Virus record (IMG/VR): IMGVR_UViG_3300008012_000103
Span: 1 to 30,507 of that record
DNA from: a virus
Strand: one strand, 5' to 3'
Length of the DNA: 30,507 bases
The translations under genes and the position numbers were made by a program. The notes under the pieces are model-generated. The model saw nothing but the letters and a program-made list of their open reading frames with translations, searched no databases and had not been told where the DNA came from. Positions 8,320-30,397 of the stretch are shown here, one piece after another; position 1 is the first letter of the stretch; each line of letters opens with the position of its first letter.

Positions 8320-9323
8320 TTAGTGAGGCAATGGAAGAAGTTCTTTCACAAATAGATCCAAAGCTTAGAAAGAAAGTGTCTGCTGCCTCAGATATTGAGG
8401 TCATAATGCAAAAGACACCCAGCGTTGGGCTAAATAAGCAACTAAATGGTGGCCTCGCTTATGGCAGGCAGGTTCTTATTTGGGGCAATAAGTCTGCTGG
8501 CAAGTCGTCGTTTTGCTTGCAAATGATTGGTCAGGCACAGAAAGAAGGAAAGATATGTGCGTGGATTGACTCAGAGCAATCATATGATCCTAAGTGGGCA
8601 CAGAGGCTAGGAGTAGACTCAGAGAGCCTTATATATTCTCCTGCCAGGACAATCAACGACATGGTTGATGTTGCCACACAACTTATGTCTGCTGGCGTAG
8701 ATATTATTGTTGTTGATTCTATCTCTGCCCTGCTTCCTGCTATCTACTTTGAGAAAGACTCTGATGAACTAAAACAGTTAGAGAATACTAAGCAAATCGG
8801 TGCAGAGGCACGGGATATGACAAACGCTGTCAAGATGCTTAACTATGCAAACAATCAGACTAAGCAAACATTGCTAGTTCTTATATCTCAGCAACGTAAT
8901 AATATTGGTCAGATGTTTGTAAGCCACCAGCCCACAGGGGGTCATGCTGTTAAGTTTTTTTCTAGCACAGTCGTCAAGCTTTGGTCAAGTGAGTCAGAAA
9001 AGAATGCTATCCAGGGCAAGATAGAAGTAGGAGATAAAGTCATACAAAGCAAGATAGGTCGCCAAGTCACCTGGACTATTGACTACAACAAGACAGGAAA
9101 AGCCTTTGAGAGTGGCATGTACGACTTCTATTTCTCTGGTGACTTTGTTGGCGTAGATAACATTGCAGAAGTTGTAGACGTTGCAGAGCAATTAGGACAC
9201 ATAGAAAAGGGTGGCGCATGGTACACAGTTCTTGGAGAAAGGTTCCAGGGTAGAGCAAAGGTGGTCGAATGGCTACGACAAAATCCAGATAAGGCGGCAG
9301 AACTTGTCCAAATCATCGAATAA
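8316..9323 (+). CDS. recA: RecA-family recombinase
   Basis: This 335-aa protein starts at GTG 8316, overlapping the preceding TGA; an in-frame ATG at 8331 would remove five residues. Walker A is GNKSAGKS (57-64), the catalytic-glutamate region is WIDSEQSY (about 83-90), Walker B is VDIIVVDS (128-135), and the ISQQRNN strand and a glycine-containing DNA-binding loop follow. The C-terminus has a compact domain with a helical end. It is a filament-forming strand-exchange protein, expected to work with the nearby exonuclease and resolvases in recombination-dependent replication and repair. It diverges clearly from chromosomal RecA, as UvsX/RecA-like phage proteins do. Confidence 0.9.
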   Translation: MISEAMEEVLSQIDPKLRKKVSAASDIEVIMQKTPSVGLNKQLNGGLAYGRQVLIWGNKSAGKSSFCLQMIGQAQKEGKICAWIDSEQSYDPKWAQRLGVDSESLIYSPARTINDMVDVATQLMSAGVDIIVVDSISALLPAIYFEKDSDELKQLENTKQIGAEARDMTNAVKMLNYANNQTKQTLLVLISQQRNNIGQMFVSHQPTGGHAVKFFSSTVVKLWSSESEKNAIQGKIEVGDKVIQSKIGRQVTWTIDYNKTGKAFESGMYDFYFSGDFVGVDNIAEVVDVAEQLGHIEKGGAWYTVLGERFQGRAKVVEWLRQNPDKAAELVQIIE

Positions 9324-9477
9324 GTATCAGGTAATACATGGAATATTTCTATGCCAGGGCTGCTCTTCAGAGGCAAACTCGTCTAGATTTTACCCATCTA
9401 CTTTAGATATTACCTGGAAGTGTAAATATTGCGAGCAAATATCCACTGTAAATATAGAAAAAGAAAGAGGATATTGA
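9304..9477 (+). CDS. Small zinc-ribbon protein (57 aa)
   Basis: The coding potential lies in a frame overlapping the end of recA. TTG at 9304 is the most likely start, with AAGGCGG about 8 nt upstream; the ATG at 9211 would overlap recA by more than 100 nt. Two CxxC pairs (CQGC near residue 17, CKYC near residue 42) separated by an aromatic-rich stretch define a zinc ribbon. The stop overlaps the next ATG. Function is unknown; nucleic-acid binding is plausible. Confidence 0.55.
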   Translation: MSKSSNKYQVIHGIFLCQGCSSEANSSRFYPSTLDITWKCKYCEQISTVNIEKERGY

Positions 9478-9788
9478 TGAGTGAGCATGGCGAGTTAAAG
9501 CGTATTGGTGCAAAGCCACATAAAAATTCTGGTCGTGGAATGGTAAAAGGCGACGGTAGCTTAGACAGATATGTTGTAGATGTAAAAGAGTATAGCAAAT
9601 CATTTTCTGTTAATAAGGATGTATGGGGTAAAATAGTTACAGACACTTTAAGAGTAGATCCAAATAAATCTCCCGTAATAATGTTAGTTCTTGGAGAGAC
9701 AAAGAAGACAAGGCTTGCTATAATTGAGTGGAATGAGTTTGAAGAGTTACGAGAGATAAGAGAGAATAATGAGCGAAAACACGATTGA
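9477..9788 (+). CDS. Probable PD-(D/E)XK nuclease / Holliday-junction-resolvase-like protein
   Basis: The start at 9477 overlaps the previous stop; the longer frame from 9429 has no ribosome site. In this 103-aa protein the motif GDGSLDRYVVDVKEY (25-39) gives D26, D35 and K37, the order of acidic and lysine residues used by PD-(D/E)XK nucleases. It is followed by strands VIMLVLGE and RLAIIEW, the usual beta-hairpin of the fold. The size and GAKPHKNSGRG start resemble small phage resolvases of the Hjc kind. The assignment rests on motif spacing only. It lies in the recombination block next to a Cas4-like exonuclease and a RuvC-like protein. Confidence 0.5.
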   Translation: MSEHGELKRIGAKPHKNSGRGMVKGDGSLDRYVVDVKEYSKSFSVNKDVWGKIVTDTLRVDPNKSPVIMLVLGETKKTRLAIIEWNEFEELREIRENNERKHD

Positions 9789-10089
9789 TATTATAAATCA
9801 AATTAATGACTTTAATGATTTATCAGAATATATGCAAGATGAAGAAATAACTCAAGCACTTATCGCAATTGCTAAACTAATTGCTAAGCCAGATATTCCT
9901 CCAGACAAGGCTGCTAGGCTTATCATTCAGATTCAGGCCTACTCTGCTAAATTTGCAATGCTAGCTTCATGGTATGCCAATGTAAAAAAAGATGATCGTG
10001 CTAAAAAAAATATTTACTATTCAGCAAGAGAGGCACTTGATAAGTTATCGGATGCCCTTAAATACACAATTAGGAGCTACCATGGCTAA
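9769..10089 (+). CDS. Helical conserved phage protein, unknown function (106 aa)
   Basis: The start overlaps the upstream gene by 20 nt; the stop overlaps the exonuclease start by 8 nt. The protein is almost entirely alpha-helical and acidic in its first third, and turns basic after KKDDRAKKN (about residues 73-81). A helical segment rich in Ala/Ile (ALIAIAKLIA) lies in the middle. No motif is recognised. Its fixed place directly before the recombination exonuclease suggests a partner or regulator of that enzyme, but this is context only. Confidence 0.55.
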   Translation: MSENTIDIINQINDFNDLSEYMQDEEITQALIAIAKLIAKPDIPPDKAARLIIQIQAYSAKFAMLASWYANVKKDDRAKKNIYYSAREALDKLSDALKYTIRSYHG

Positions 10090-10912
10090 AAATATAATAT
10101 CTAAGATTGTCAAGGGTAAATCAAAAGAGGCTGTAGAAGAAGTAGAATGGCAAACACAAATGCCTGACAATGTAGAGGATGAATTTGCAGACCTTGTTGA
10201 TGCTATTCACAAGGGGTATGTTGCTAGCAATGAACCTAAGTATATGAAGAAGAAGACCTTTTCTCCTTCCACCATTGTTTTTGGTCACGGCAAGTGTCCA
10301 CGGTATTGGTATCTAGCATTTGAGGGTAACACTTTTTATGAAGAGCGTGAGGGCAAGTCTCAGGCTAACATGGATAGTGGCACAGACAGACACAAAAGAA
10401 TTCAAGATGCCATTTCTAGTGCAGGACTAATGCTTGTCAACGAAGAGAAGGTAGTGTTTGATGACCCACCCATCTTTGGTTTTTTGGATAGTATTATTAA
10501 GTGGAAAGATTCAGAATATTTAGTTGAGATTAAGACAGCAAACCATGATGCATTTGAGCGTCATAAGAAGAGTATGACAGCAAGTACATACCACATTGTT
10601 CAGCTTCTTATTTACATGAAAATATTTAAAAAGAAAAATGGCATAGTAATGTATGAGAACAAAAATACTCATGATCTACTTGCTATCCCTGTAAATATTA
10701 CACAGAGACATGTAGACTTTGTTGACTACCTCTTTGATTGGATGAAAGAGGTGTATGGTGCATGGAAGGATCAGAAGCTCCCAGAGGTTCCGTATAAGAA
10801 TAATAAAGTAAAGGTTCCGTGTGGTAGTTGCCCTGTGCAAAAGGCCTGTCAGGAGGCCCCTAAGGGAGATATTAAGATATCTAGAAGAAAGGAAGAAAAG
10901 GGAGATTTCTAA
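10082..10912 (+). CDS. Cas4-like / RecB-family PD-(D/E)XK exonuclease with a 4Fe-4S site
   Basis: The start at 10082 follows AGGAG by 6 nt; an upstream in-frame ATG at 9992 lies within the previous gene. The 276-aa protein shows C72 (KCPRYW), the nuclease core H104, D136 (FGFLD), E149-x-K151 (VEIKTA) and QLLIY (174-178, motif QxxxY), and then C247, C250 and C256 (CGSCPVQKAC). One N-terminal and three C-terminal cysteines around a RecB nuclease core are the hallmark of Cas4/AddB-type iron-sulfur nucleases. It likely resects DNA ends for the RecA protein encoded upstream. There is no CRISPR array or other cas gene here, so a recombination role is preferred. Confidence 0.85.
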   Translation: MAKNIISKIVKGKSKEAVEEVEWQTQMPDNVEDEFADLVDAIHKGYVASNEPKYMKKKTFSPSTIVFGHGKCPRYWYLAFEGNTFYEEREGKSQANMDSGTDRHKRIQDAISSAGLMLVNEEKVVFDDPPIFGFLDSIIKWKDSEYLVEIKTANHDAFERHKKSMTASTYHIVQLLIYMKIFKKKNGIVMYENKNTHDLLAIPVNITQRHVDFVDYLFDWMKEVYGAWKDQKLPEVPYKNNKVKVPCGSCPVQKACQEAPKGDIKISRRKEEKGDF

Positions 10913-12478: not shown

Positions 12479-12974
12479 GCATCTTGATGAAGTAAACAAG
12501 GTTGCATCAGAATATTTAAAGGGAACTGATACAGCACAGATAGCACGGGAGTTAGACATACCCCGTACCCGTGTAATGTCATTGCTCAATGACTGGCGTA
12601 AAATGGCAGCAAATAATGAAGCCATTCATGCGAGAGCAAGAGAGGCATTGGCTGGTGCAGATCAACATTATTCCAGCTTAATTAAAAAGGCATATGAGGT
12701 CATTGACACAGCAGATCAAACAGCAAATCTTAATGCTAAGACAACATCAATCAAACTTATTGCTGATATTGAAGCAAAAAGACTTGACATGCTTCATCGT
12801 GCAGGTCTTTTAGATAATAAAGAGGTAGCAGAAGAACTTGCTCGTATGGAAGAAAAGCATCAAATTCTTATAATTATTCTTAAAGATGTTGCTACAAAAT
12901 ATCCAGAAATTCGTAATGAAATTATGTCAAAGCTTTCTGAAGCAACTGACGGAGTGATCATAGTTGACAATTGA
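12453..12974 (+). CDS. Probable terminase small subunit
   Basis: The GTG start at 12453 has GAGGAAAG about 3-9 nt upstream. In this 173-aa protein an N-terminal HTH at about residues 24-48 (GTDTAQIARELDIPRTRVMSLLNDW) precedes a long helical region that could oligomerise (residues 55-140), ending in an acidic tail. That build and the position directly before the large subunit are typical of phage TerS proteins, which recognise the packaging site and hand DNA to the motor. Sequence identity to a named family is not visible, so the call depends on architecture and context. Confidence 0.7.
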   Translation: MSKEIDLVKHLDEVNKVASEYLKGTDTAQIARELDIPRTRVMSLLNDWRKMAANNEAIHARAREALAGADQHYSSLIKKAYEVIDTADQTANLNAKTTSIKLIADIEAKRLDMLHRAGLLDNKEVAEELARMEEKHQILIIILKDVATKYPEIRNEIMSKLSEATDGVIIVDN

Positions 12975-14745
12975 TTTATCTGATTTCATGGAGGCTCTTG
13001 ATGATAATCCATTTCAGGAAGAACCAGTAGATGTAGAAACCTTTGTAAAGTCCCCAGACTTTTTAGGGCAGCCAGAACTGTCTCACTATCAGTATGTTCT
13101 CGTAGAGTGCATGAGTCAGATATACAAAGAAAAAGATTTGCAAAGATTTATGGGAAAGGAAGAGGGTAGTGAACACTATAAGAAATATACTAAGTCAGAA
13201 GTTATATTGCAACTTGGCAAAGGATCAGGTAAGGATCACACTTCTACTGTGGGTTGTGCTTATCTTGTTTATAAGCTTCTTTGCTTAAAAGATCCTGCTG
13301 CATATTTTGGTAAGCCCCCTGGTGATGCTATTGACATTATCAATATTGCTGTAAACGCACAGCAAGCAAAGAATGTTTTCTTTAAAGGATTCAAAAACAA
13401 GATTGATAAATCTCCATGGTTTGCTGGAAAGTATGATGCTAAAGTAGACAATGTTGAGTTCGATAAGGCTGTCACAGTATATTCTGGTCACTCAGAAAGA
13501 GAGAGCCATGAGGGTCTAAACCTTATGCTTGCTGTCCTTGATGAGATTTCTGGTTTTGCCCAAGAGTCAAGTAGTGGCAATGAAAATGCAAAAACAGGAG
13601 AAGCAATCTATAAAGCATTCCGTGGCTCAGTTGATTCACGATTTCCCGACTATGGAAAGGTAGTTCTTCTTTCATTCCCACGTTACAAGGGTGACTTTAT
13701 CTCTAAAAGATATGATGACGTTGTTGCTGAAAAAGAAACTGAATTTAAAAAGCATACCTTTGTTCTTAATCCTGCCTTGCCAGAAGATGATCCAGGAAAC
13801 ACCTTTGATATTGAATGGGAAGAAGACAGAATAGAGTCTTATAAGTTCCCTGGAGTTTATGCGCTTAAAAGACCTACATGGGAAGTAAACCCAACAAGAA
13901 GCATTGAAGACTTTAAGCTTGCATTTTATACAGATCCAGCAGATGCAATGATGCGCTTTGCCTGTATGCCTACTGTATCTTCAGATGCATTTTTTAAATC
14001 GCGGGATAAGATAGAAAAGTCATTAAGTATTCGTAATCCGCTTGATACTTTTAGAAGAATAGATCCTAGTTTTAAACCAAACCCAGATACAACTTATTTT
14101 GTACATGCTGACCTAGCACAAAAACATGACAAGTGTGCAGTAGCATTAAGCCATGTTGAAAAATGGGTAGAGGTGCAAACATTTAATGACTACACTCAAG
14201 TAGTGCCATTTGTTGTTGTAGATATGATTGCTTGGTGGGAGCCTCGTAGAGAAGGCCCAGTAGACTTATCTGAAGTAAAAAACTGGATTATTGATCTTAG
14301 AAGAAATGGATTTAATCTTGGTCTAGTTACATTTGACCGCTGGCAGTCATTTGATATTCAGCGGGATCTAAAGAGTGTTGGTATTAATACAGAGACTCTT
14401 TCAGTAGCAAAGAAACACTATGAAGATCTTGCCATGCTTTTTTATGAAGAGCGGGTTGTTGCACCACATATTGAAATACTCTTAGAAGAGCTTTTGGAAC
14501 TTAGAATCGTGTCAAATAACAAGGTCGATCACCCAAGAAAGAAGTCAAAGGACTTGGCTGATGCAATGTGTGGATCTGTTTATAATGCAATCTCTCACTC
14601 CAAGAAAAATACTTTTGGAGAAATAGAGGTACACACATGGTCCTCATTTAAAGCAGATAGAAATAGAGAATTAATAGAAGAAAAAGAAAAACCACAAATG
14701 ACAGATGATATAAAAAATTATCTTTCTAACTACAAACTAATATAG
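12964..14745 (+). CDS. Terminase large subunit (packaging ATPase/nuclease)
   Basis: The 593-aa protein starts at TTG 12964, overlapping TerS by 11 nt. The ATPase domain has Walker A LGKGSGKD (84-91) and Walker B LMLAVLDE (187-194) with the catalytic E194. The C-terminal RNase H-like nuclease shows D383 (VHADLAQK), D458 (VTFDRWQ) and D530/D533 (KDLADAM), the three acidic sites expected. It cuts concatemers and pumps DNA into proheads. The Walker A ends in GKD rather than GKT/S, a variation found in some phage terminases. No portal gene follows, so the head module lies elsewhere. Confidence 0.92.
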   Translation: MTIDLSDFMEALDDNPFQEEPVDVETFVKSPDFLGQPELSHYQYVLVECMSQIYKEKDLQRFMGKEEGSEHYKKYTKSEVILQLGKGSGKDHTSTVGCAYLVYKLLCLKDPAAYFGKPPGDAIDIINIAVNAQQAKNVFFKGFKNKIDKSPWFAGKYDAKVDNVEFDKAVTVYSGHSERESHEGLNLMLAVLDEISGFAQESSSGNENAKTGEAIYKAFRGSVDSRFPDYGKVVLLSFPRYKGDFISKRYDDVVAEKETEFKKHTFVLNPALPEDDPGNTFDIEWEEDRIESYKFPGVYALKRPTWEVNPTRSIEDFKLAFYTDPADAMMRFACMPTVSSDAFFKSRDKIEKSLSIRNPLDTFRRIDPSFKPNPDTTYFVHADLAQKHDKCAVALSHVEKWVEVQTFNDYTQVVPFVVVDMIAWWEPRREGPVDLSEVKNWIIDLRRNGFNLGLVTFDRWQSFDIQRDLKSVGINTETLSVAKKHYEDLAMLFYEERVVAPHIEILLEELLELRIVSNNKVDHPRKKSKDLADAMCGSVYNAISHSKKNTFGEIEVHTWSSFKADRNRELIEEKEKPQMTDDIKNYLSNYKLI

Positions 14746-14753
14746 GAGACAAA

Positions 14754-15782
14754 ATGTTAAAAGTAGGCAAAGCAATGTGTTTTGATGATATTCTTCTTGT
14801 TCCACAAAAAAGCTCAATATCTTCAAGACACGAAGTTAATTTGTCAATGAGTATAGGTTATAAAAAAAAGAAAATTAATCTAGAATTGCCTGTTATAGCA
14901 GCACCTATGGATACAGTTTGTGACACTGAAATGTGTATTGCTATGCATAATGCTGGCGGTATAGGAATCCTTCATAGATATATGTCTTATCAAGAACAAA
15001 TATTAAAGTCTCAAAACCTTTTAGAAAAAGAAATAAGATTTGGTGTTGCCCTTGCATCTAATAATGGATATCTTGCTCAGGCAGATCATTTATATAATGT
15101 TGGAGTAAGAGTTTTTCTTGTTGATACTGCAAACGGTCATAGTACTTATGCTACTAAGGCAGTAGCACAACTTAGAAACGCATTTAAAGATGCACATATT
15201 ATGGCTGGAAATGTTTCTACAAAAGACGGATTTTTAAGGTTGGCAGAAGCAGGAGCAGACTCTGTTCGCGTAGGAATTGGTGGAGGGAGTGCCTGCACTA
15301 CAAGAATGGTTAGTGGCCATGGAGTTCCAACATTACAATCAATTATGGATTGTGCAGAAACATTTCAAGAATGTTCCATCATTGCTGATGGAGGAATAAG
15401 AACAAGTGGAGACATGGTTAAGTCTTTTGCTGCTGGTGCTGATGCAGTAATGATTGGATCAATGCTTGCTGGGACAGATGAGTCCCCAGGAGAAATACTA
15501 ACAGATGCTGATGGTAGAGAGGTAAAAGCTTTCCGTGGCATGGCGAGTGCTTCTGCACAAAAAGATGCCACAGGAAAGGTTTCGGTAGCAGAAGGTATAT
15601 CTACTACTGTTCCATACAAGGGTTCTGTTGCACACATTCTTAATCAAATTCGTGGTGGACTAGGTAGTGGATGCTCTTATAGCGGAGCAGAGAATCTTTC
15701 ATGCCTTGAAGAATATTCAGAATATGTAACGGTATCAGCATTAAGTATAAATGAATCAATTCCACATGCAAAAATAGGATAG
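14754..15782 (+). CDS. IMP dehydrogenase / GMP reductase family enzyme without CBS domains
   Basis: AGGAGA precedes the ATG by 5 nt. The 342-aa TIM barrel has FDDILLVP (10-17), [10 protein letters not shown] (46-55), the phosphate-binding and catalytic loop [11 protein letters not shown] (174-184, Cys181), [10 protein letters not shown] (211-220), and the C-terminal PYKGSV (287-292). These are family hallmarks. IMPDH makes XMP from IMP and GMPR runs GMP to IMP; both use NAD(P). The length and absence of CBS domains are GMPR-like or minimal-IMPDH-like, and I cannot separate them by eye. As a phage purine gene it would raise or redirect guanine nucleotide supply. It sits oddly between the terminase and late-type genes. 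Confidence 0.85.
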
Positions 15783-20574: not shown

Positions 20575-20853
20575 ATGGATACTGAAACCAAATGTTTAAT
20601 TCTTGAAGAGCTTTCTAAAGCTTTTACTTTTGGGGAATTGGACAGGGAGTTTTTTTCAGAATTCATAATATATAATGATCTAGGTCTTCCACTAGCGCAA
20701 ATGGTTGCCTACGATCTTGGAACTTTAAATAATGATGGGAAAAAAATAATAGATGAAACATGGCTATCATTGTGTAATCTATTAAATTTAGACCCAACAG
20801 AAGAGTTTCAAAATATTGATGATATGCTAGATGAGTATGAGTCAGATGATTAA
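20575..20853 (+). CDS. Acidic hypothetical protein (92 aa)
   Basis: The gene follows the SSB stop by 1 nt (TAATATG) with no strong ribosome site of its own beyond GGGAATAA. The protein is helical and acidic with a very acidic C-terminus (DDMLDEYESDD). A central block (IIYNDLGLPLAQMVAYDLGTL) is reminiscent of small phage proteins of unknown function. Acidic tails of this kind sometimes mimic DNA, but nothing more can be said. Its end overlaps the convergent FkbM gene by 4 bp. Confidence 0.5.
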   Translation: MDTETKCLILEELSKAFTFGELDREFFSEFIIYNDLGLPLAQMVAYDLGTLNNDGKKIIDETWLSLCNLLNLDPTEEFQNIDDMLDEYESDD

Positions 20854-21578
20854 TTTACTGTTGCTAGGAAATTACCCTGATCATCTAGTCTAGAAATATT
20901 GTATCCAAAATCTCTTAACAGAGATTCAGATGTTGGAGGGGTTTGAATTCCAAGATCTGCCAATGTAGACTTTGAAATAGTTTTATGATTATGTTCAAAT
21001 ACTATTGTTGGCATACATTCTTTTATGGTTTTTTGTGCACCTAAAAGAACTAAGGGTTCAAATCCCTCCACATCTATTTTCATAAAATCAACATTCGATA
21101 GATCTAGCGAATCAATCGTAATGATATTGGTAGCCTCTCCACCCTTGCCCATTTGTAGTCCACCAAGATTATATCTTTTTTCTGTTCCATAACCTATTTC
21201 TCTATTTGCATTCTCACCATCAATAGATGAATTACTCATTGTAAATATTCTATTTTCATGTCCAACGGCACAGTTATATATGTGAACATTGTCAAAATTA
21301 TTTTGCTCTACATTATGGGTAAGCAAGTCTGACATTTTTCTTTGTGGCTCAAAGGCAAATATCTCAGAACTTGGATTTAGATATTTATACAATATTGTAT
21401 GAGATCCAGCATGTGCACCTATGTCAAGAATAGTTTTACTACTCTTTATATATGGTGCAAGTTTATTTAATACTAAGCCTTGCTCATATATCTTTCCATT
21501 ATTTAATGTATCAGCAAATACCTGATCATTTTTATAATAGGCTATGTATCCGTAATCAGTTTTCTTTTCTATAATCAC
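20850..21578 (-). CDS. FkbM-family SAM methyltransferase
   Basis: The GTG start at 21578 lies 6 nt after a TACAAT box, so it is probably leaderless. The 242-aa protein has SAM motif I LDIGAHAGSH (51-60), FAFEPQ (74-79, carrying the acidic residue for ribose), and KIDVEGFEPLVLLGA (167-181), the FkbM hallmark. FkbM enzymes O-methylate sugars or macrolides; many act on glycans and exopolysaccharides. Next to it, divergently, is a glycosyltransferase, suggesting a joint role on a glycan. The gene points opposite to the replication and late genes. Confidence 0.88.
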   Translation of the reverse strand: MIIEKKTDYGYIAYYKNDQVFADTLNNGKIYEQGLVLNKLAPYIKSSKTILDIGAHAGSHTILYKYLNPSSEIFAFEPQRKMSDLLTHNVEQNNFDNVHIYNCAVGHENRIFTMSNSSIDGENANREIGYGTEKRYNLGGLQMGKGGEATNIITIDSLDLSNVDFMKIDVEGFEPLVLLGAQKTIKECMPTIVFEHNHKTISKSTLADLGIQTPPTSESLLRDFGYNISRLDDQGNFLATVN

Positions 21579-21584
21579 AAGAAA

Positions 21585-21590
21585 ATTGTA
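21585..21590 (-). promoter_or_regulatory. Leaderless promoter for the FkbM gene (TACAAT, 6 nt before GTG)
   Basis: Read on the minus strand, TACAAT is followed by TTTCTT and then GTG at 21578, so the transcript should begin at or by the start codon. TG and one base (TGa) precede the box, making an extended -10. It lies 6 bp from the oppositely directed TATAAT of the glycosyltransferase gene. Confidence 0.55.
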
Positions 21591-21593
21591 TCA

Positions 21594-21602
21594 TGCTATA
21601 AT
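21594..21602 (+). promoter_or_regulatory. Leaderless promoter for the glycosyltransferase gene (TGcTATAAT, 6 nt before the ATG)
   Basis: TG at 21594-21595, one base, TATAAT at 21597-21602, then TTTTGC and ATG 21609. The perfect extended -10 with a 6-nt gap predicts a leaderless transcript. No ribosome site is present. Confidence 0.65.
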
Positions 21603-21608
21603 TTTTGC

Positions 21609-22397
21609 ATGTTTAAACCCATACAATATGACAAGCATTTTGTTATCGGAACCCCCCTTGTTGGATGGAAAGTAGACAGAGGTGAGCATATGTACTGGTT
21701 ACAGAATGCAAATAAGATTAGAGAAAAATTTCCCAACGCTGTTTACTTTGCTGCATTAGAGCTTGATCACAGAGGAATAGAGCCATTTAAGCCAATGATA
21801 GAAGTATTAGAATCTGTTGGCGGTAATTACTGGACATACACTATTGATGATAGGCAGGAGACAGTAACATCTGGCAATCGCTGGATAAGAATTGAAACTG
21901 GTCGTAATCTTATTCGTGAGTTTGCACAAAGAAAAAGAGTAATGTCTGGAAATAATTGGGGAGAAGAAACAAAACAGTCAGTTGTAAATTTTGATGCGAT
22001 TCTTTATATAGACTCAGACAATATTGTTACAACGGAAATTATAGAAAAAATGTTTGAAATTGATAGACCACTTGTTGGTGTAGATGTTCCAGCATATGGG
22101 TTGAAGGGCGAAGTTGTAAATCAAAGACCAAGAATTGAGGAGCATTGGACAACTGCTGGAATGCTGCTTGTTAATGCTCCAGCCTATTACGACCTACCCT
22201 GGTTTCATAATGCATACTTAAATCTTAGCGATGACCCAACATTCCAATCAGTTGCGAATAGACTAAAAAGGCGGGTAGGACAAGAAACATTTGAAGATAC
22301 ATATGGAATGACATGGGTAAGAAAAGATATCAAGTCTGAGCATAAGGGTCAATTAATTTCTGTAGAGAAAAGAAATATACCTAATAGAATTATTTAG
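21609..22397 (+). CDS. Probable GT-A-type glycosyltransferase
   Basis: In this 262-aa protein VNFDAILYIDSDNIV (126-140) has the D-x-D metal site DSD (135-137) of GT-A glycosyltransferases, and the start FVIGTPLVGW resembles the first strand of family-2-like transferases. The region RPLVGVDVPAYGL and WTTAGMLLVNAPAYYDLPWF (about 180-200) looks like the acceptor half. The sugar and acceptor are unknown. Likely targets are phage virion proteins, DNA bases or a host glycan. The gene has its own leaderless promoter and overlaps the convergent endolysin gene by 8 bp. Confidence 0.75.
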   Translation: MFKPIQYDKHFVIGTPLVGWKVDRGEHMYWLQNANKIREKFPNAVYFAALELDHRGIEPFKPMIEVLESVGGNYWTYTIDDRQETVTSGNRWIRIETGRNLIREFAQRKRVMSGNNWGEETKQSVVNFDAILYIDSDNIVTTEIIEKMFEIDRPLVGVDVPAYGLKGEVVNQRPRIEEHWTTAGMLLVNAPAYYDLPWFHNAYLNLSDDPTFQSVANRLKRRVGQETFEDTYGMTWVRKDIKSEHKGQLISVEKRNIPNRII

Positions 22398-22917
22398 TTC
22401 TCTTGCCATTCTTTTTAATGCCAAGTAGCCTTTGTACTTCCTTAACATCTTTAAAGGTAGTATTTCTTTTAGCACCACGATCCCATGACTGAGAAAGTTC
22501 TGTGTGCATACCGTCTGGCTTTCTCCACCATTCACCATTTGCAAAAATTCTGTGACCATCCTTTGTCTTGTAACGATCAAGAATGCGGTTGAGGATCTTC
22601 ATTTCTGATTGATTCATGTGTGGCTTACCGTCTGGCTTAAGAACATCGTATCTAAGGTCTACGGCTGTTCCAGATGCGTGGTTTGAATAGTTTTTGGTAT
22701 ATCTAGAGTATCTGTAATTCCACCCGTCTACTGGACCTTTGTTTAGATTGAGTCTTTCTGGCATTTCAGCGTGCCAGTCTGCAAGAAATGCAGCAAAAAC
22801 TGGAGCGATGCCACGACGAACACGAACGGTTCGATTAGTTCCTGGAATTTTAACAGCCTTAAGTCTTGGATCTGCCCATTTTGTAATTACGGGCCAGTTG
22901 TTTAATGATTTAGCCAT
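22390..22917 (-). CDS. Endolysin: M15-family zinc peptidase (VanY/L-Ala-D-Glu type)
   Basis: The start at 22917 is chosen because a TATAAT box stands 6 nt upstream; an ATG at 22932 would add five residues. The 175-aa protein has the zinc ligands H80 and D87 (NHASGTAVDLRYD) and H138 (GMHTEL), as in M15 carboxypeptidase/endopeptidase lysins. It cuts the peptide part of peptidoglycan. There is no signal peptide, so a holin would be needed. The C-terminal DVKEVQRLLGI looks like the first helix of a PG_binding_1 repeat, but it is cut short before the repeat ends. The gene shares its promoter region with the kinase-P450 operon. Confidence 0.85.
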   Translation of the reverse strand: MAKSLNNWPVITKWADPRLKAVKIPGTNRTVRVRRGIAPVFAAFLADWHAEMPERLNLNKGPVDGWNYRYSRYTKNYSNHASGTAVDLRYDVLKPDGKPHMNQSEMKILNRILDRYKTKDGHRIFANGEWWRKPDGMHTELSQSWDRGAKRNTTFKDVKEVQRLLGIKKNGKRTK

Positions 22918-22923
22918 ACAAAT

Positions 22924-22929
22924 ATTATA
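22924..22929 (-). promoter_or_regulatory. Leaderless promoter for the endolysin (TATAAT, 6 nt before the ATG)
   Basis: On the minus strand TATAAT (22929-22924) is followed by ATTTGT and ATG 22917. The -10 overlaps by 2 bp the -10 of the rightward promoter. Confidence 0.65.
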
Positions 22930-22933
22930 CACT
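22928..22933 (+). promoter_or_regulatory. Leaderless promoter for the kinase-methyltransferase-P450 operon (TACACT, 6 nt before the ATG)
   Basis: TACACT at 22928-22933, then ATACCT and ATG 22940. The box fits the TANNNT form with the 6-nt gap seen elsewhere in this window, but is weaker than TATAAT. A second reading is TATACA (22926-22931), 8 nt before the ATG. Confidence 0.5.
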
Positions 22934-22939
22934 ATACCT

Positions 22940-23818
22940 ATGAATTACGAAGAATTCTTAAAGTTCTGGCTAGAAGAAAGCCAAGGGTTTAATAAATTTA
23001 CAGATATTCAGAGACTGTCTTCTGGAATATCATCTAATGTTTGTAGAATAGGTAATGCTAGTGGTGACACACTAATATTAAAATATGCTATATCAGATGA
23101 CTTTGTGACCAAAAAAAGAATATTCAATCAGTATCAAATACAAAAAACTCTTTATGGTAGCTTTCCTGTTGCCGAGCCTCTTTACTATAATATTTCTCCA
23201 TCAATTTTTGAATTTCCTTTTTACATAATGGAAGATATTGAAGGAAGGCCAAGTTACAATAGTGAATCAATAATTAATTCGTTTGATATGCTGCATAAGT
23301 TACACAGCATGGATCTTGATAAATTTTTAACATCGAAAACCAAGGGTAAAAATAACATAGGATATAATATACAAAAAATAAACAAACAATGTATTGATAG
23401 GTCAGAGTTAGTTCCCATAAATGTAGATCACATACATAAGTGGCTCATGAAAAATTATCCAGAAGAAAACAAAAATTCAATAGTTCATAATGATTGGAAA
23501 ATGGACAATATTTTATTTCATAATAATCAGATATCCGCAATACTAGATTGGGAGCTTTTTGATGTAGGAGATCCTAGAATGGATTTTGGCATAGCAATGT
23601 CTTACTGGTCGGATGAGTATTTATGTCCCAAGGAGAAGGTGCTTGATTTATTTATTGATAAGTATTTTGTAAGTGAAAAAGAGTGGAAATTCTTTGAGGT
23701 TTTAGGAATGTTTAGGCTAATTCCCATAGCACAATTAGCACAGATACGATATAATAATATGACTATCCAAGATAAAATAAATACGATAGTAGAAAGATGC
23801 GAAGGAGCAATAAGATAA
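22940..23818 (+). CDS. Aminoglycoside-phosphotransferase-fold (APH/choline kinase-like) enzyme
   Basis: The start at 22940 fits the leaderless promoter; an open frame from 22739 would run antisense over the endolysin. The 292-aa protein shows the kinase-like fold: glycine loop at about 28-33 (SSGISS), VHNDWKMDNILF (182-193) with catalytic D185 and N190, then the metal aspartate D203 in ILDWELFDVGDPRMDFG. This is the Brenner motif set of APH, choline and homoserine kinases. The substrate is probably a small hydroxyl compound. It opens a three-gene operon with a methyltransferase and a P450, which suggests work on one shared metabolite. Confidence 0.82.
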   Translation: MNYEEFLKFWLEESQGFNKFTDIQRLSSGISSNVCRIGNASGDTLILKYAISDDFVTKKRIFNQYQIQKTLYGSFPVAEPLYYNISPSIFEFPFYIMEDIEGRPSYNSESIINSFDMLHKLHSMDLDKFLTSKTKGKNNIGYNIQKINKQCIDRSELVPINVDHIHKWLMKNYPEENKNSIVHNDWKMDNILFHNNQISAILDWELFDVGDPRMDFGIAMSYWSDEYLCPKEKVLDLFIDKYFVSEKEWKFFEVLGMFRLIPIAQLAQIRYNNMTIQDKINTIVERCEGAIR

Positions 23819-24430
23819 ATGTCAAGGGTTTTATATCAGCCAGTATTAAATCAGGCCATTAATGATAACTCAGCAATACTTAGGGGCTGCCAAGATAGGC
23901 TAGATGCTATGGTTGCCTTTTGTGAAAACAAGTTTGGCTCCTCTCTTTCAGAAAAGTCATTTTTAGATATTGGATCTTGTTACGGATTTTTTGTAAATGC
24001 ATTTAATGGTTTATGCTCAATTGTTACTGGTATTGAGAATGGAAACAAAGAATTTAATATGACCAGAATATTTTATCCAGACATTTCTTCTCAAATAAAC
24101 AAAGAAGATTTTACAGAGACAATAGACGGCTACCAAAATTATGACATTGTTTCTCTTTTAAGCGTATTGCATAGCATAATAATTTCAGATGGTGCCGATC
24201 ATGCCGCAGAAATTCTAAGAAAAATTGATGCAAAAACAAATGATGTTTTATTTATTGATATGGGCCAAGAAAATGAATTAATTTATAACAGCAGTATGAG
24301 TGGATGGAATAAAGATTCTATTGCCCAATGGGTACTGAATGAGACAAGTTTTGATGTTTGTGAACCATTGATTGAAGACTCTGACCCAAGATTTGGAAGA
24401 ACCCTTTTTGCCTGTTATAGAAATAAGTAA
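23819..24430 (+). CDS. Class I SAM-dependent methyltransferase
   Basis: The ATG follows the previous TAA directly, with AAGGAG about 13 nt upstream. This 203-aa protein has motif I LDIGSCYGFF (49-58), the acidic end of strand 2 in VTGIENGN, and motif IV-like YDIVSLLSVLHSII (about 108-121), which together make up a Rossmann methyltransferase core. The N-terminus (RDxx-type basic helices) could form a substrate lid. The target atom cannot be read from sequence. Its stop overlaps the P450 start (TAATG), so the pair is coupled. Confidence 0.75.
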   Translation: MSRVLYQPVLNQAINDNSAILRGCQDRLDAMVAFCENKFGSSLSEKSFLDIGSCYGFFVNAFNGLCSIVTGIENGNKEFNMTRIFYPDISSQINKEDFTETIDGYQNYDIVSLLSVLHSIIISDGADHAAEILRKIDAKTNDVLFIDMGQENELIYNSSMSGWNKDSIAQWVLNETSFDVCEPLIEDSDPRFGRTLFACYRNK

Positions 24431-25602
24431 TGAAGCAAGTAATTGGCGGGGAAGACTTAATAAATAGTTTTATTTCTCTTAGAGACTCCTGTGATAATGG
24501 ATATTTTCATTATAGCTATGGCAAAAGAGATGCACTATTAATATTTTCTCCAGAAATTGTTAATGAGGTCTTAGTAAATAAACAAAACAGTTTTTCTAGA
24601 GGGATAGTTTTTCTTAAAATGAAAAACTTTTTTGGCAATGGCTTGATAGTATCAGAAGATCCAGAGCACATAACAAACAAAAGAATGCTGCAGGGTAGTT
24701 TTAGCAAAAAGATAGTTGATGATTATCAAACAATAATTAATAATGAATGCAATGCAAGCTTTGAAAACTTAGAAGAAAAAGGCTTCTCGTTGTCAAATTT
24801 AGCAGACAAGGTAGCATTTGATTGCGTTGCTAAATGTTTTATTGGAGAAGATGTTCCATCTGAATATATTTCTGCATACCATGATATATCTTATAAGATA
24901 TCTAACATTCCTAGACTTGTATTTTCTACTGAAGAAACAATTAATTTTTCGCCTGTTAGAAACTTTATAAAAGATATTATTTTACAGAGCAATGTACAAG
25001 ATAACTTACTTTGGTCAATGATTAATTCTGACATGAATACTGATCAAATAACTGATGAAATAATAACCATATTAGGTGCTGGATTTGAAACAACAAGTGC
25101 TTTGATATCTTGGACACTTATTAATTTGTATAACAATGATGACGTTCTACAAAAATGTAGAGAAGATGACTCAATGATAGATAAAGCTATTAAAGAAACA
25201 TTGAGAACAAATCCTCCTGCTTACTTTACAACTAGGACGGCATCAAATGATATAGATTTATCTGGCGTAACAATAAAGCAAGGAACAAATATTTTTATAT
25301 CGCAATATGTTACTCATAGGGATAAAAAATACTATTCAGATCCAGATAATTGGAACCCTGAAAGATGGAGTAAACAATTTGAAAAAAGCTTGCCCCGTGG
25401 AGCATACTTCCCTTTTGGAATGGGGTCTAAAAAATGTATTGGCGAATATTTTTCTATAATGGTTGCAAAAACCTTTATTTCATTATTCATTAATAGATAT
25501 CATTTTGAAATAATTGACAAAAATATTAAACCAAAGTACCTTGTTTCCATGATTCCAGATAGCCCTGTGACTACAATCACTAGTAGTTTGTTCGACAAAT
25601 AA
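24430..25602 (+). CDS. Cytochrome P450
   Basis: This 390-aa protein has all P450 hallmarks: the C-helix region with H80 and R85 (EHITNKRML), the I-helix oxygen site GAGFETTS (216-223), the ExxR pair E256/R259 (KETLR), the PERF-like NPERW (309-313), and the heme loop FGMGSKKCIG (329-338) with C336 as thiolate ligand. There is no membrane anchor, so it should be soluble and fed by a ferredoxin; no redox partner gene is visible, so host proteins are implied. It inserts oxygen into a small molecule. Arginine codons are nearly all AGA/AGG, unlike the CGT-using core genes. P450 genes are rare in phages. Confidence 0.93.
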   Translation: MKQVIGGEDLINSFISLRDSCDNGYFHYSYGKRDALLIFSPEIVNEVLVNKQNSFSRGIVFLKMKNFFGNGLIVSEDPEHITNKRMLQGSFSKKIVDDYQTIINNECNASFENLEEKGFSLSNLADKVAFDCVAKCFIGEDVPSEYISAYHDISYKISNIPRLVFSTEETINFSPVRNFIKDIILQSNVQDNLLWSMINSDMNTDQITDEIITILGAGFETTSALISWTLINLYNNDDVLQKCREDDSMIDKAIKETLRTNPPAYFTTRTASNDIDLSGVTIKQGTNIFISQYVTHRDKKYYSDPDNWNPERWSKQFEKSLPRGAYFPFGMGSKKCIGEYFSIMVAKTFISLFINRYHFEIIDKNIKPKYLVSMIPDSPVTTITSSLFDK

Positions 25603-25620
25603 ACAAAGTCTTGATATAAT
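25592..25620 (+). promoter_or_regulatory. Sigma70-type promoter (TCGACA-17-TATAAT with extended -10)
   Basis: TCGACA (25592-25597) differs by one base from the -35 consensus, followed after 17 bp by TATAAT (25615-25620), with TGa at 25612-25614. The start point is near 25627, leaving a leader of about 30 nt that carries AAAGGAGG before ATG 25657. This is one of the strongest promoter and ribosome-site pairs in the window. Confidence 0.75.
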
Positions 25621-25656: not shown

Positions 25657-25830
25657 ATGAAAACACTCATGCGTAAAATTGAGAATCTTTTCACAAACGC
25701 CACAAGCGAAGAAGAAAAGTCTCGTCGTGCAATGCACCGTGCATGGATGGTCGAAAGAGAAAGGGCCGCTAGATATGGCCCCCATCATGTCCAAGAGATT
25801 GACGCAATCTTTACTCGCGCAGGACTCTAA
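25657..25830 (+). CDS. Small, highly expressed-looking charged protein (57 aa)
   Basis: It has AAAGGAGG about 7 nt upstream and a strong promoter of its own. The protein is helical and basic/acidic: MKTLMRKIENLFTNATSEEE, then KSRRAMHRAWMVERERAARYG and a HHVQEIDAIFTRAGL tail. No cysteine, no membrane segment and no known motif. Isolation between two promoters, with a short monocistronic unit, suggests early or high-level expression, as for host take-over peptides. Function is unknown. Confidence 0.65.
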   Translation: MKTLMRKIENLFTNATSEEEKSRRAMHRAWMVERERAARYGPHHVQEIDAIFTRAGL

Positions 25831-25897: not shown

Positions 25898-26080
25898 ATG
25901 CTTGACTGCAGAGGCATTCCTACGAGGGAATGCATAAATTGTGGATCAAATCTTTTTACTGTACAAGTACAGTTTGATGAAGCATATGAAATAACCTCTT
26001 ATCTACTTGACTGTGAGTGTGCTTACTGTCATACTAAGCTAACTGCTCCAACACCGTTGGACCTTATAGAAATGGATTAA
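25898..26080 (+). CDS. Small zinc-ribbon protein (60 aa)
   Basis: AGGGAG lies 7 nt before the ATG. Cysteine pairs CINC (12-17 region) and CECAYC (about 39-44) mark a zinc ribbon, with beta-strands LFTVQVQF and ITSYLLDC between. It overlaps nothing and is followed after 1 nt by the DNA glycosylase-like gene. Such small ribbons often bind RNA polymerase or nucleic acid in phages, but the role here is unknown. Confidence 0.55.
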   Translation: MLDCRGIPTRECINCGSNLFTVQVQFDEAYEITSYLLDCECAYCHTKLTAPTPLDLIEMD

Positions 26081-28861: not shown

Positions 28862-29040
28862 TGATTAAATGCTGGAACTGCGGTACAGAAATGGAAAAAC
28901 GCGGGGTAGAAGAATACAAAGCATCATTACTAGCTAATATAAGAAATCTAGAAGAAATATTTTCTACCGTAGGAGATAACTATAGGGCAAGTGCCTATGA
29001 AGATATTATCTATTTGATTGAGAACTTTGATGGGCAATGA
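28858..29040 (+). CDS. Small protein with one CxxC (60 aa)
   Basis: The ATG overlaps the preceding TGA. The N-terminus KCWNCG (4-9) is half a zinc ribbon and the rest is a helix (YKASLLANIRNLEEIFSTVG) plus an acidic tail. The other half of a ribbon is absent, so it may dimerise around one zinc. Its 3' end overlaps the convergent dioxygenase gene by 31 bp. Confidence 0.5.
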   Translation: MMIKCWNCGTEMEKRGVEEYKASLLANIRNLEEIFSTVGDNYRASAYEDIIYLIENFDGQ

Positions 29041-29591
29041 GGAATCTCTCCATATGGCACATCATTTAGCCATGTTACAAGAACAAATTTTTCTCCTGAT
29101 TTTACTGGCATAGCCTTGTGAGTGCAGACATAGTTTGATGGAAAGAATACCGCTGAAGGAGTCTGAGGCTTTATACTCACATCATAATATTGAAAGTATG
29201 TCTGCCCACCCTCATATTCGGTCGGGTTTAAATAAACAATGACTGAGGTAGTTCTATATATATTCCACGCAGCATCTGAATGATAATCGAAATATTGTCC
29301 TTGTTCGTATTTGAGCAGACTAACCCTTTCTGATGAACGTAGATCCGCATTTGGATGATTTGCACAATAGTCTTGAGAGTAAGAAATAAGTAAGTCTTTT
29401 AGCTTATTTTTTATATCGGGGCTAAACCATTTAAAGGGAGTTTCTGTACTTGTTCTTTGAGGCTGAGTAGAGACTTCCCCTGCAAGAAGAGAGTCTTTCC
29501 ACATTGGCTTTATTCTTTGTGAGAAAGCAATAATATCTTTGGCAAGTTCGGGTGGGAAATCATATACTTCAAATCCTGGTGGATATATCAT
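29010..29591 (-). CDS. 2-oxoglutarate/Fe(II) dioxygenase (prolyl 4-hydroxylase-like)
   Basis: In this 193-aa double-stranded beta-helix protein the iron ligands are H104-x-D106 (FDYHSDAAW) and H158 (VCTHKAMPV), and K168 (SGEKFVLVTW) is the 2-oxoglutarate anchor. The order H-x-D...H...K is that of P4H-type dioxygenases. They hydroxylate proline in proteins or small molecules. The start overlaps the sulfotransferase by 23 nt, with AAGGAAAGG about 12 nt upstream, so both form a minus-strand operon. It may act on a virion protein, a host glycoprotein or a metabolite. Confidence 0.85.
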   Translation of the reverse strand: MIYPPGFEVYDFPPELAKDIIAFSQRIKPMWKDSLLAGEVSTQPQRTSTETPFKWFSPDIKNKLKDLLISYSQDYCANHPNADLRSSERVSLLKYEQGQYFDYHSDAAWNIYRTTSVIVYLNPTEYEGGQTYFQYYDVSIKPQTPSAVFFPSNYVCTHKAMPVKSGEKFVLVTWLNDVPYGEIPHCPSKFSIK

Positions 29592-30360
29592 TATCGAATC
29601 TTTCCTTTCCTTTAATATATATCTCGTAATCTGGGCTTTTGTCGTAGAACTTTTGTCTGGGAAATAAACAGTCGTATGGCTTACCCACAGCCTTATCTTT
29701 GTTGTCGTTGGTGTTGCCTCCTGCCACCTTTATTCCCCACAAGCTATTTAACAGGTCTATGGTAGCAGACATGTTTTCCGTTATGCCAACGGAATCAAAA
29801 GAATCAACGTCATCAAAATAAACGGGGTAGGTAGGATTATCTACTGACCACTCTAAGTAATCATCTACACTCATATCATACTTATGAATGTTATATGTCT
29901 TGTCATAAAAAGCAGTTGATGGACCATCGTCAGTAAATCCTCCCCAACCAGAAATTCCCATTATCTTTCCTGTGTGGTGAGCTAAAAACTCAAGTTTGCG
30001 AGGATCGGTTAAATCCCAATTTTTAAAAATGCTCAATGCGTTCTGTGCCTGTCGCTTGATGAAATAGTATTCAGAAGCAGCCCTGTCATAAGGATCGCGG
30101 AGAACAGTAAAGTAGGGGGTAGAGTTATTCGTAATCTCCTTTATGAGAGAAAGAGTCATATGAGAAGAGCCAGGAGTCTTAGAGTTTCTTAGCCGTGCTC
30201 GTCCTAAAGAATAAGGGGAATAATAATGAGAAGGCACGGGGGTTAGAGAAAGATATGTACTTCCTGTCTTAGGTACAAACACTATCCCTATAGATGTATT
30301 AATAGAAGGAGAAGATCTAGATATGGTGGTTATTTCTTTGTATTTTTTGGCTTCATTCAT
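29569..30360 (-). CDS. Sulfotransferase (PAPS-dependent)
   Basis: The start at 30360 is favoured because an extended -10 (TGaTATACT) stands 8 nt upstream; an open frame from 30378 would add six residues and overlap it. The 263-aa protein has the 5'-phosphosulfate loop VPKTGSTYL (29-37) and the 3'-phosphate site FTVLRDPYDRAASEYY (84-99), the two defining PAPS-binding motifs. Family members sulfate sugars, peptides or small molecules. The acceptor is unknown; linkage to a dioxygenase and to glycosyltransferase/methyltransferase genes suggests a glycan or a natural-product-like molecule. No PAPS synthesis gene is visible, so the host must supply the donor. Confidence 0.82.
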   Translation of the reverse strand: MNEAKKYKEITTISRSSPSINTSIGIVFVPKTGSTYLSLTPVPSHYYSPYSLGRARLRNSKTPGSSHMTLSLIKEITNNSTPYFTVLRDPYDRAASEYYFIKRQAQNALSIFKNWDLTDPRKLEFLAHHTGKIMGISGWGGFTDDGPSTAFYDKTYNIHKYDMSVDDYLEWSVDNPTYPVYFDDVDSFDSVGITENMSATIDLLNSLWGIKVAGGNTNDNKDKAVGKPYDCLFPRQKFYDKSPDYEIYIKGKERFDNDISTRI

Positions 30361-30368
30361 GATAAATA

Positions 30369-30377
30369 AGTATATCA
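30369..30377 (-). promoter_or_regulatory. Extended -10 promoter (TGaTATACT) for the sulfotransferase operon
   Basis: On the minus strand TGaTATACT ends 8 nt before ATG 30360, so the leader would be only 1-2 nt. There is no ribosome site. This is a nearly leaderless variant of the pattern seen elsewhere. Confidence 0.5.
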
Positions 30378-30397
30378 AATTGTTGCATAAAAAGATA

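Follow-up and report, generated by a model that had tools for sequence, protein, structure and literature searches.

The window analysed here, a virus record of 30.5 kb (30,507 nucleotides) that is a genome fragment, carries in tight succession (22940-25602) genes for an APH-fold phosphotransferase, a class I SAM methyltransferase and a complete cytochrome P450, and the three recur in that order in a cousin phage. We suggest that they form a horizontally moved, phage-borne cassette for tailoring a molecule by capping it with methyl phosphate, a reading in which we infer substrate, order of steps and purpose, and to which we give somewhat less than an even chance.

All three genes are on the plus strand. 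The first (22940-23818) has an ATG start and encodes a putative kinase of 292 aa, ACAD10/11-kinase/LvaA-like, with a Pfam APH match at 1.8e-24. The second (23819-24430) encodes a methyltransferase of 203 aa related to the WbdD methyltransferase domain, and the third (24430-25602) a P450 of 390 aa that matches Pfam p450 (PF00067) at 6.4e-53. The start of the methyltransferase gene abuts the kinase stop (23818/23819), and its own stop shares one base with the P450 start. The kinase motifs HNDWKMDN (H183, D185, N190) and DWE (D203) are intact, and in our alignments these four residues are invariant across the kinases of the window, of acI genomes and of the cousin phage. The P450 has an I-helix motif (AGFETT, residues 217-222), keeps the ExxR motif (E256, R259) and has a heme loop, PFGMGSKKCIG, that fits FxxGxxxCxG with C336 as the heme cysteine. 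With these abutting or overlapping ends and kept catalytic motifs, the claim of the initial annotation that three intact genes are tightly coupled is borne out, and the structure prediction that it proposed gave confident AlphaFold2 models for the methyltransferase (pLDDT 88.8) and the P450 (pLDDT 89.9). For each gene, given the local composition, an open frame of such length would arise by chance with a probability of 1e-7 to 1e-15.

The cousin phage was found by a kinase-profile scan of the viral records in IMG/VR, which gave L132 (IMGVR_UViG_3300042112_000506) and L133; the two records overlap, are 99.99% identical over 16.8 kb and represent a single phage type. In L132 kinase, methyltransferase and P450 are respectively 36, 44 and 43% identical to those of the window, with Pfam matches (APH, methyltransferase, p450) above the cut-offs. 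Scattering of the genes, or a P450 decayed to the loss of its heme cysteine, had been named as outcomes to look for in relatives; in L132 the genes are together in the order of the window and the heme cysteine is kept. IMG/VR scans with the P450, kinase and methyltransferase as single proteins gave no match. The L132 terminase is 76% identical to that of the window and the gene order is common to the two through the SSB region, whereas the three genes are at a different locus, immediately divergent from a sulfotransferase gene. As they are far more diverged than the terminases, the set was probably acquired separately, or moved, in the two phages.

Comparison of window and L132 by NG86 gave dN/dS of about 0.3-0.4 for all three genes, with dN 0.59 and dS 1.5 for the kinase, 0.46 and 1.74 for the methyltransferase, and 0.50 and 1.31 for the P450; the dS values are near saturation, and the ratio is still well under 1. 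This suggests that all three genes are maintained, and since in both phages the P450 comes as a conserved unit with the kinase and methyltransferase, it is probably used in infection.

Two further genes of the window may be related to the set. A sulfotransferase-like gene (29569-30378, minus strand) is 41% identical to the sulfotransferase beside the three genes in L132 and is a possible satellite of them; a search of the 10 kb on that side in the sibling phages L004, L006 and L007 gave no such gene. The association of a 2OG-Fe(II) oxygenase gene (29010-29591, minus strand) is uncertain, and in the cousin phage a different 2OG oxygenase comes after the set. Cousin-phage record L139 has other metabolic cargo (reverse complement, 9178-10290 and 12701-14708), comprising a PstS-like phosphate-binding protein (identified by eye), a cytidine-type deaminase and a cytosine/purine permease.

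With regard to the genome itself, there are clear phage families among the replication genes, terminase and SSB of the window, and as the terminase is 55-58% identical to those of Streptomyces phages such as Gilson and Karimac the virus is, by its sequence, placed as an actinophage. Sibling loci (n=10) were fetched with the divergent lysin as query. In six of them (L003-L007 and L009) the lysin gene directly adjoins the genes that in the window are to the right of the P450 gene, and at base level the gap from lysin to the promoter of the next gene is about 60 bp in L003-L006. In the window about 35 bp of this intergenic sequence is replaced by the three genes: sibling-like sequence is kept up to about 22932 on the left and from about 25583 on the right, which puts the approximate edges of the segment absent from the siblings at 22933 and 25583. 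The left anchor of the site is the divergent M15-type endolysin gene (22390-22932, minus strand) and the right anchor a small phage gene, g57 (57 aa; 25657-25830, plus strand). A promoter-like site of the resident phage for the next gene, TCGACA-17-TATAAT (25592-25620, plus strand), is conserved in the siblings; the last P450 codons and stop overlap it, its -35 box falling in the C-terminal codons. The inserted segment has a GC content of 0.30-0.33 as against about 0.38 around it, and there are no convincing flanking direct repeats at its edges to mark transposition. The L004 terminase is 98% identical to that of the window, which makes either the insertion or, in the siblings, its loss a recent event.

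We had also to consider that these might be decaying passenger genes, or that the assembly joined phage to host DNA, as was raised in the initial annotation. The low GC, the absence from siblings and a P450 N terminus that is short by comparison with host homologues would all fit. However both flanks match the sibling phages at base level, in two phages the motifs are intact and dN is lower than dS, none of the bacterial loci read showed the three-gene order, and a search of 296 acI-order genomes, which had no positive control in that group, did not find the methyltransferase. Decay or chimera is thus largely refuted and has very little probability left. With the sibling site empty and both flanks phage, the set is a separate inserted segment rather than a chimeric join with host DNA, and it is what is generally called an auxiliary metabolic cassette: metabolic genes, variably present, between phage flanks. 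The position beside the lysin gene had been taken as a sign of late action, for which it is a weak guide, the lysin being divergently transcribed and the set being elsewhere in the cousin phage.

Other cargo is present in this phage group. An IMPDH/GMP-reductase-like gene (14754-15782; Pfam 6e-98) directly follows the terminase in the window, is present in siblings such as L011 and is missing from the cousin phage (L139). Variable cargo (20850-22397) is found beside a conserved GT-like gene (21609-22397), with an FkbM methyltransferase in the window and, at the same site in sibling L004 (11320-13708), a HAD-nucleotidyltransferase fusion, another FkbM gene and a gene for 145 aa; it seems that surface-sugar-like cargo swaps at this position.

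For the host there is a lead in a 60-aa CxxC protein encoded near the three genes (25898-26080), nearly invariant in sibling phages, with homologues of about 48-57% identity in 26 of 201 acI-order genomes; in one locus (L019, 1691-1861) the homologue is between a fur-like gene and uppS. We treat it as a gene common to phage and host. These homologues, together with a P450 that is closest to those of aquatic actinobacteria, make an aquatic actinobacterial host likely, as judged from shared genes.

The methyltransferase carries much of the functional argument. The protein (METHYLTRANSFERASE) is barely recognised by Pfam, with Methyltransf_11 at 0.008 and below the curated cut-off, but WbdD came first in a Foldseek search with the model (E 5.8e-11, TMq 0.74), tied with ChlM by VIA (Z 18.1 over 193 residues, as against 18.2), was well ahead in a profile search of PDB sequences with hmmsearch (4e-13, next family 1e-5), and gave 97.7% by hhalign for its methyltransferase domain. 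By sequence and model we take the two to be homologous. WbdD of E. coli phosphorylates the terminal mannose of the O antigen and then methylates that phosphate, for which Y16, H132, H133 and R203 are needed, H133A abolishing methylation (PMC3482155). We aligned 14 sequences, with a WbdD segment identical to the PDB entries. Y6, R27, E73 and H118 of the window protein are the equivalents of WbdD Y16, R36, D82 and H132, and the Y16, R36 and H132 positions are invariant in 14/14. For R203 the candidate equivalents are R194 by topology and R201 by MAFFT. The H133 position is His in 13 of the 14 sequences and Ser (S119) in the window protein, which would count against phosphate methylation. His pairs are also found in methyltransferases acting on other groups, such as NodS and RebM (PMC3482155). 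On the sequence a phosphate-methylating role is plausible.

Searches of genomes gave methyltransferase relatives of 29-40% identity in some Actinomycetes, and at least one of them is the C-terminal portion of a longer protein (L118, 433 aa). Their neighbours, by eye, include Wzz-like, flippase, glycosyltransferase and sulfotransferase genes, with CysN/CysD in one, so that to the eye they sit in exopolysaccharide clusters. No kinase was found near the relatives in four bacterial clusters, and coupling to a kinase is therefore not general in the family. A search of phages and plasmids with the methyltransferase gave no match, and the profile built from the bacterial relatives failed to recover the cousin-phage protein. 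These clusters allow another reading, that phosphate, O-methyl on a hydroxyl and oxidation are three independent decorations of one glycan or secondary-metabolite scaffold, with sulfate in addition and no methyl phosphate made. The sulfotransferase linked to the set would fit this, as would the O8 WbdD of E. coli, which methylates hydroxyls directly (PMC3482155). But the O8 type is without the His pair and R203, and most of the family of the phage enzyme keeps the pair; furthermore the kinase adjoins the methyltransferase in both phages. We regard independent decoration as unlikely, while still deserving attention. In both phages the kinase gene is directly before the methyltransferase gene, and in WbdD a kinase domain is fused to the methyltransferase; this adjacency of a kinase to a WbdD-like enzyme in two phages suggests that the methyltransferase acts on the kinase product, and for that pairing taken alone we would put the chances at about even.

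The best PDB match of the kinase is ACAD11 (2e-19). ACAD10/11 and the bacterial LvaA phosphorylate 4-hydroxyacyl-CoAs (PMC11342911), and acI genomes have, by eye, a complete ACAD-kinase-SDR-ADH operon. The three phage genes could thus be a lipid or fatty-acid set, in which an LvaA/ACAD11-like kinase acts on a hydroxyacyl-CoA made by the P450 to feed or divert host lipid metabolism, and the methyltransferase makes a methyl ester or ether, with no methylation of a phosphate. The kinase family and the host operon speak for this, as does the likeness of the P450 to folds that bind fatty acids. However LvaA/ACAD11 chemistry needs a partner acyl-CoA dehydrogenase, and there is none within or beside the set in either phage; the kinase is only 25-30% identical to the acI kinases; and the methyltransferase is WbdD-like and not like carboxyl methyltransferases. 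We consider a lipid set to be a minor possibility. In none of the host loci read is a kinase gene next to a P450 gene.

P450s and methyltransferases can modify drugs, and actinobacterial phages may meet such compounds. With a kinase of APH fold, the set might then detoxify an antibiotic, as the initial annotation had thought possible, or a host-made anti-phage small molecule. But against the NCBIfam resistance APH models the best score was 37.9 bits for a cut-off of 205, and the nearest relatives are the acyl kinases of the ACAD10/11-LvaA group, so we reject resistance as a reading of the kinase; there was also no PADLOC match for the set. Detoxification is improbable.

For the P450 the AlphaFold2 model has TMq 0.85 to CYP184A1, and the nearest folds (CYP184A1, CYP3A, CYP97A3 and CYP46A1) handle long hydrophobic molecules, the CYP184A1 structure having been crystallised with oleic acid. 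As CYP97 and CYP175 are among its matches, the predicted P450 could be read as a carotenoid hydroxylase, which these do not single out. Its N terminus is about 70 residues shorter than in host homologues, and is likewise short in the cousin phage. In our tree the P450s of the two phages form a fully supported pair, sister to aquatic actinobacterial P450s with 99% SH-aLRT; the tree was made by a quick method and has long branches, so that the pairing is firm and the deep placement a lead. Substrates of P450 and kinase are not to be read from identities of 20-30%. Ferredoxins of two Pfam families were looked for, with none in the window record (a fragment) or the cousin-phage record.

P450s had been said to be very rare in phages, and so they are in INPHARED, with 3 in 50,697 records and one of these in bacterial-looking DNA. 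That one is Pseudomonas phage Y1 (L013, OQ572403.1), which we rejected as a phage P450: its region looks like bacterial chromosome and by eye encodes adenylate kinase, TsaB-like and RND-efflux-like proteins. P450 profiles gave no match in IMG/VR, although the cousin phage was there, so that these negatives and those of the single-protein scans say little about rarity; the P450 pattern required LPR and hence missed the cousin-phage protein, in which the loop is LPKGAYFP.

The preferred reading, methyl-phosphate capping, may be set out as follows. With host ferredoxin and reductase, the P450 would hydroxylate a host lipid or lipid-linked molecule on its hydrophobic portion, acyl or isoprenoid, or else oxidise that molecule elsewhere, as a first or independent step. 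The kinase would phosphorylate the hydroxyl so made, or one on a sugar of the molecule, and the WbdD-like enzyme would methylate the new phosphate to give the cap. A lipid or lipid-linked surface glycan would be a fitting substrate in view of what the three enzymes are related to and of the sulfotransferase linked to them. The purpose might be to remodel the infected cell's surface or envelope, with a growing glycan capped or a receptor masked against other phages. In this full form, a mobile operon that gives an infected actinobacterium a lipid or glycan which is hydroxylated and capped with methyl phosphate, and so alters the cell surface, the proposal is tentative and less likely than not. 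The set had been described as a small-molecule tailoring route in the order phosphorylate, methylate, oxidise; tailoring of a small or surface molecule stands, whereas for the order the methyl is better placed on the phosphate and the P450 probably acts first or independently. Looking in the literature for a precedent of fostriecin type, with P450 and kinase, gave nothing usable.

The link to WbdD, which like the insertion is absent from the initial annotation, turns a generic tailoring set into one question, whether kinase and methyltransferase together make a methyl phosphate. If they do, a surface-capping chemistry of their own would be carried by phages of freshwater actinobacteria, which are among the most abundant bacteria of fresh water. 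Phage P450s and auxiliary metabolic cassettes are already known, and there is a real chance here of new phage chemistry. The initial annotation knew of no phage operon with these three genes, and we found no report of one in the open-licence literature; to our knowledge there is also no earlier description of phage chemistry that joins a P450 to a split WbdD-like capping pair, and we know of no phage P450 with established function.

In relation to known systems, the sister group of the phage P450s is the freshwater actinobacterial P450 (acI/Nanopelagicales, Luna and others), which differs in being about 470 aa long and 26-34% identical, and in standing alone, for example between leuA and a small gene or glnA; it was not seen with the phage kinase or methyltransferase in the loci read. 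Such stand-alone P450s are widespread in small-genome freshwater actinobacteria (L018-L060), with neighbourhoods that vary between lineages; hydroxylation of carotenoids or fatty acids is a candidate function. In IMCC26077 (L037, 5776-8047) the host P450 is followed 149 bp downstream by a class I methyltransferase gene, for which BLAST with the phage methyltransferase gave no match. Mycobacterium phage Adler resembles the window in being an actinobacterial phage with a P450, but that P450 is elsewhere in the tree at 19-25% identity and has no kinase or methyltransferase annotated beside it. One article cites the Adler P450 and gives redox partners as not found in viral genomes so far (PMC9405906). 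The LvaA and ACAD10-ACAD11 kinases are the nearest solved and host relatives of the phage kinase, which differs from them in having no partner acyl-CoA dehydrogenase and in its 25-30% identity. The cousin phage (L132/L139) shares the three genes in their order and the sulfotransferase, and differs in the locus and in proteins that are 36-44% identical. The bifunctional WbdD of E. coli O9a, which makes a methyl-phosphate cap, is homologous to the window methyltransferase over most of the domain; the window protein keeps the equivalents of Y16, R36 and H132 and has a kinase encoded alongside, but kinase and methyltransferase are separate genes without the C-terminal coiled coil, the kinase is of ACAD11-type APH and not the WbdD kinase domain, and the window has Ser at the H133 position, an added P450 and a phage location.
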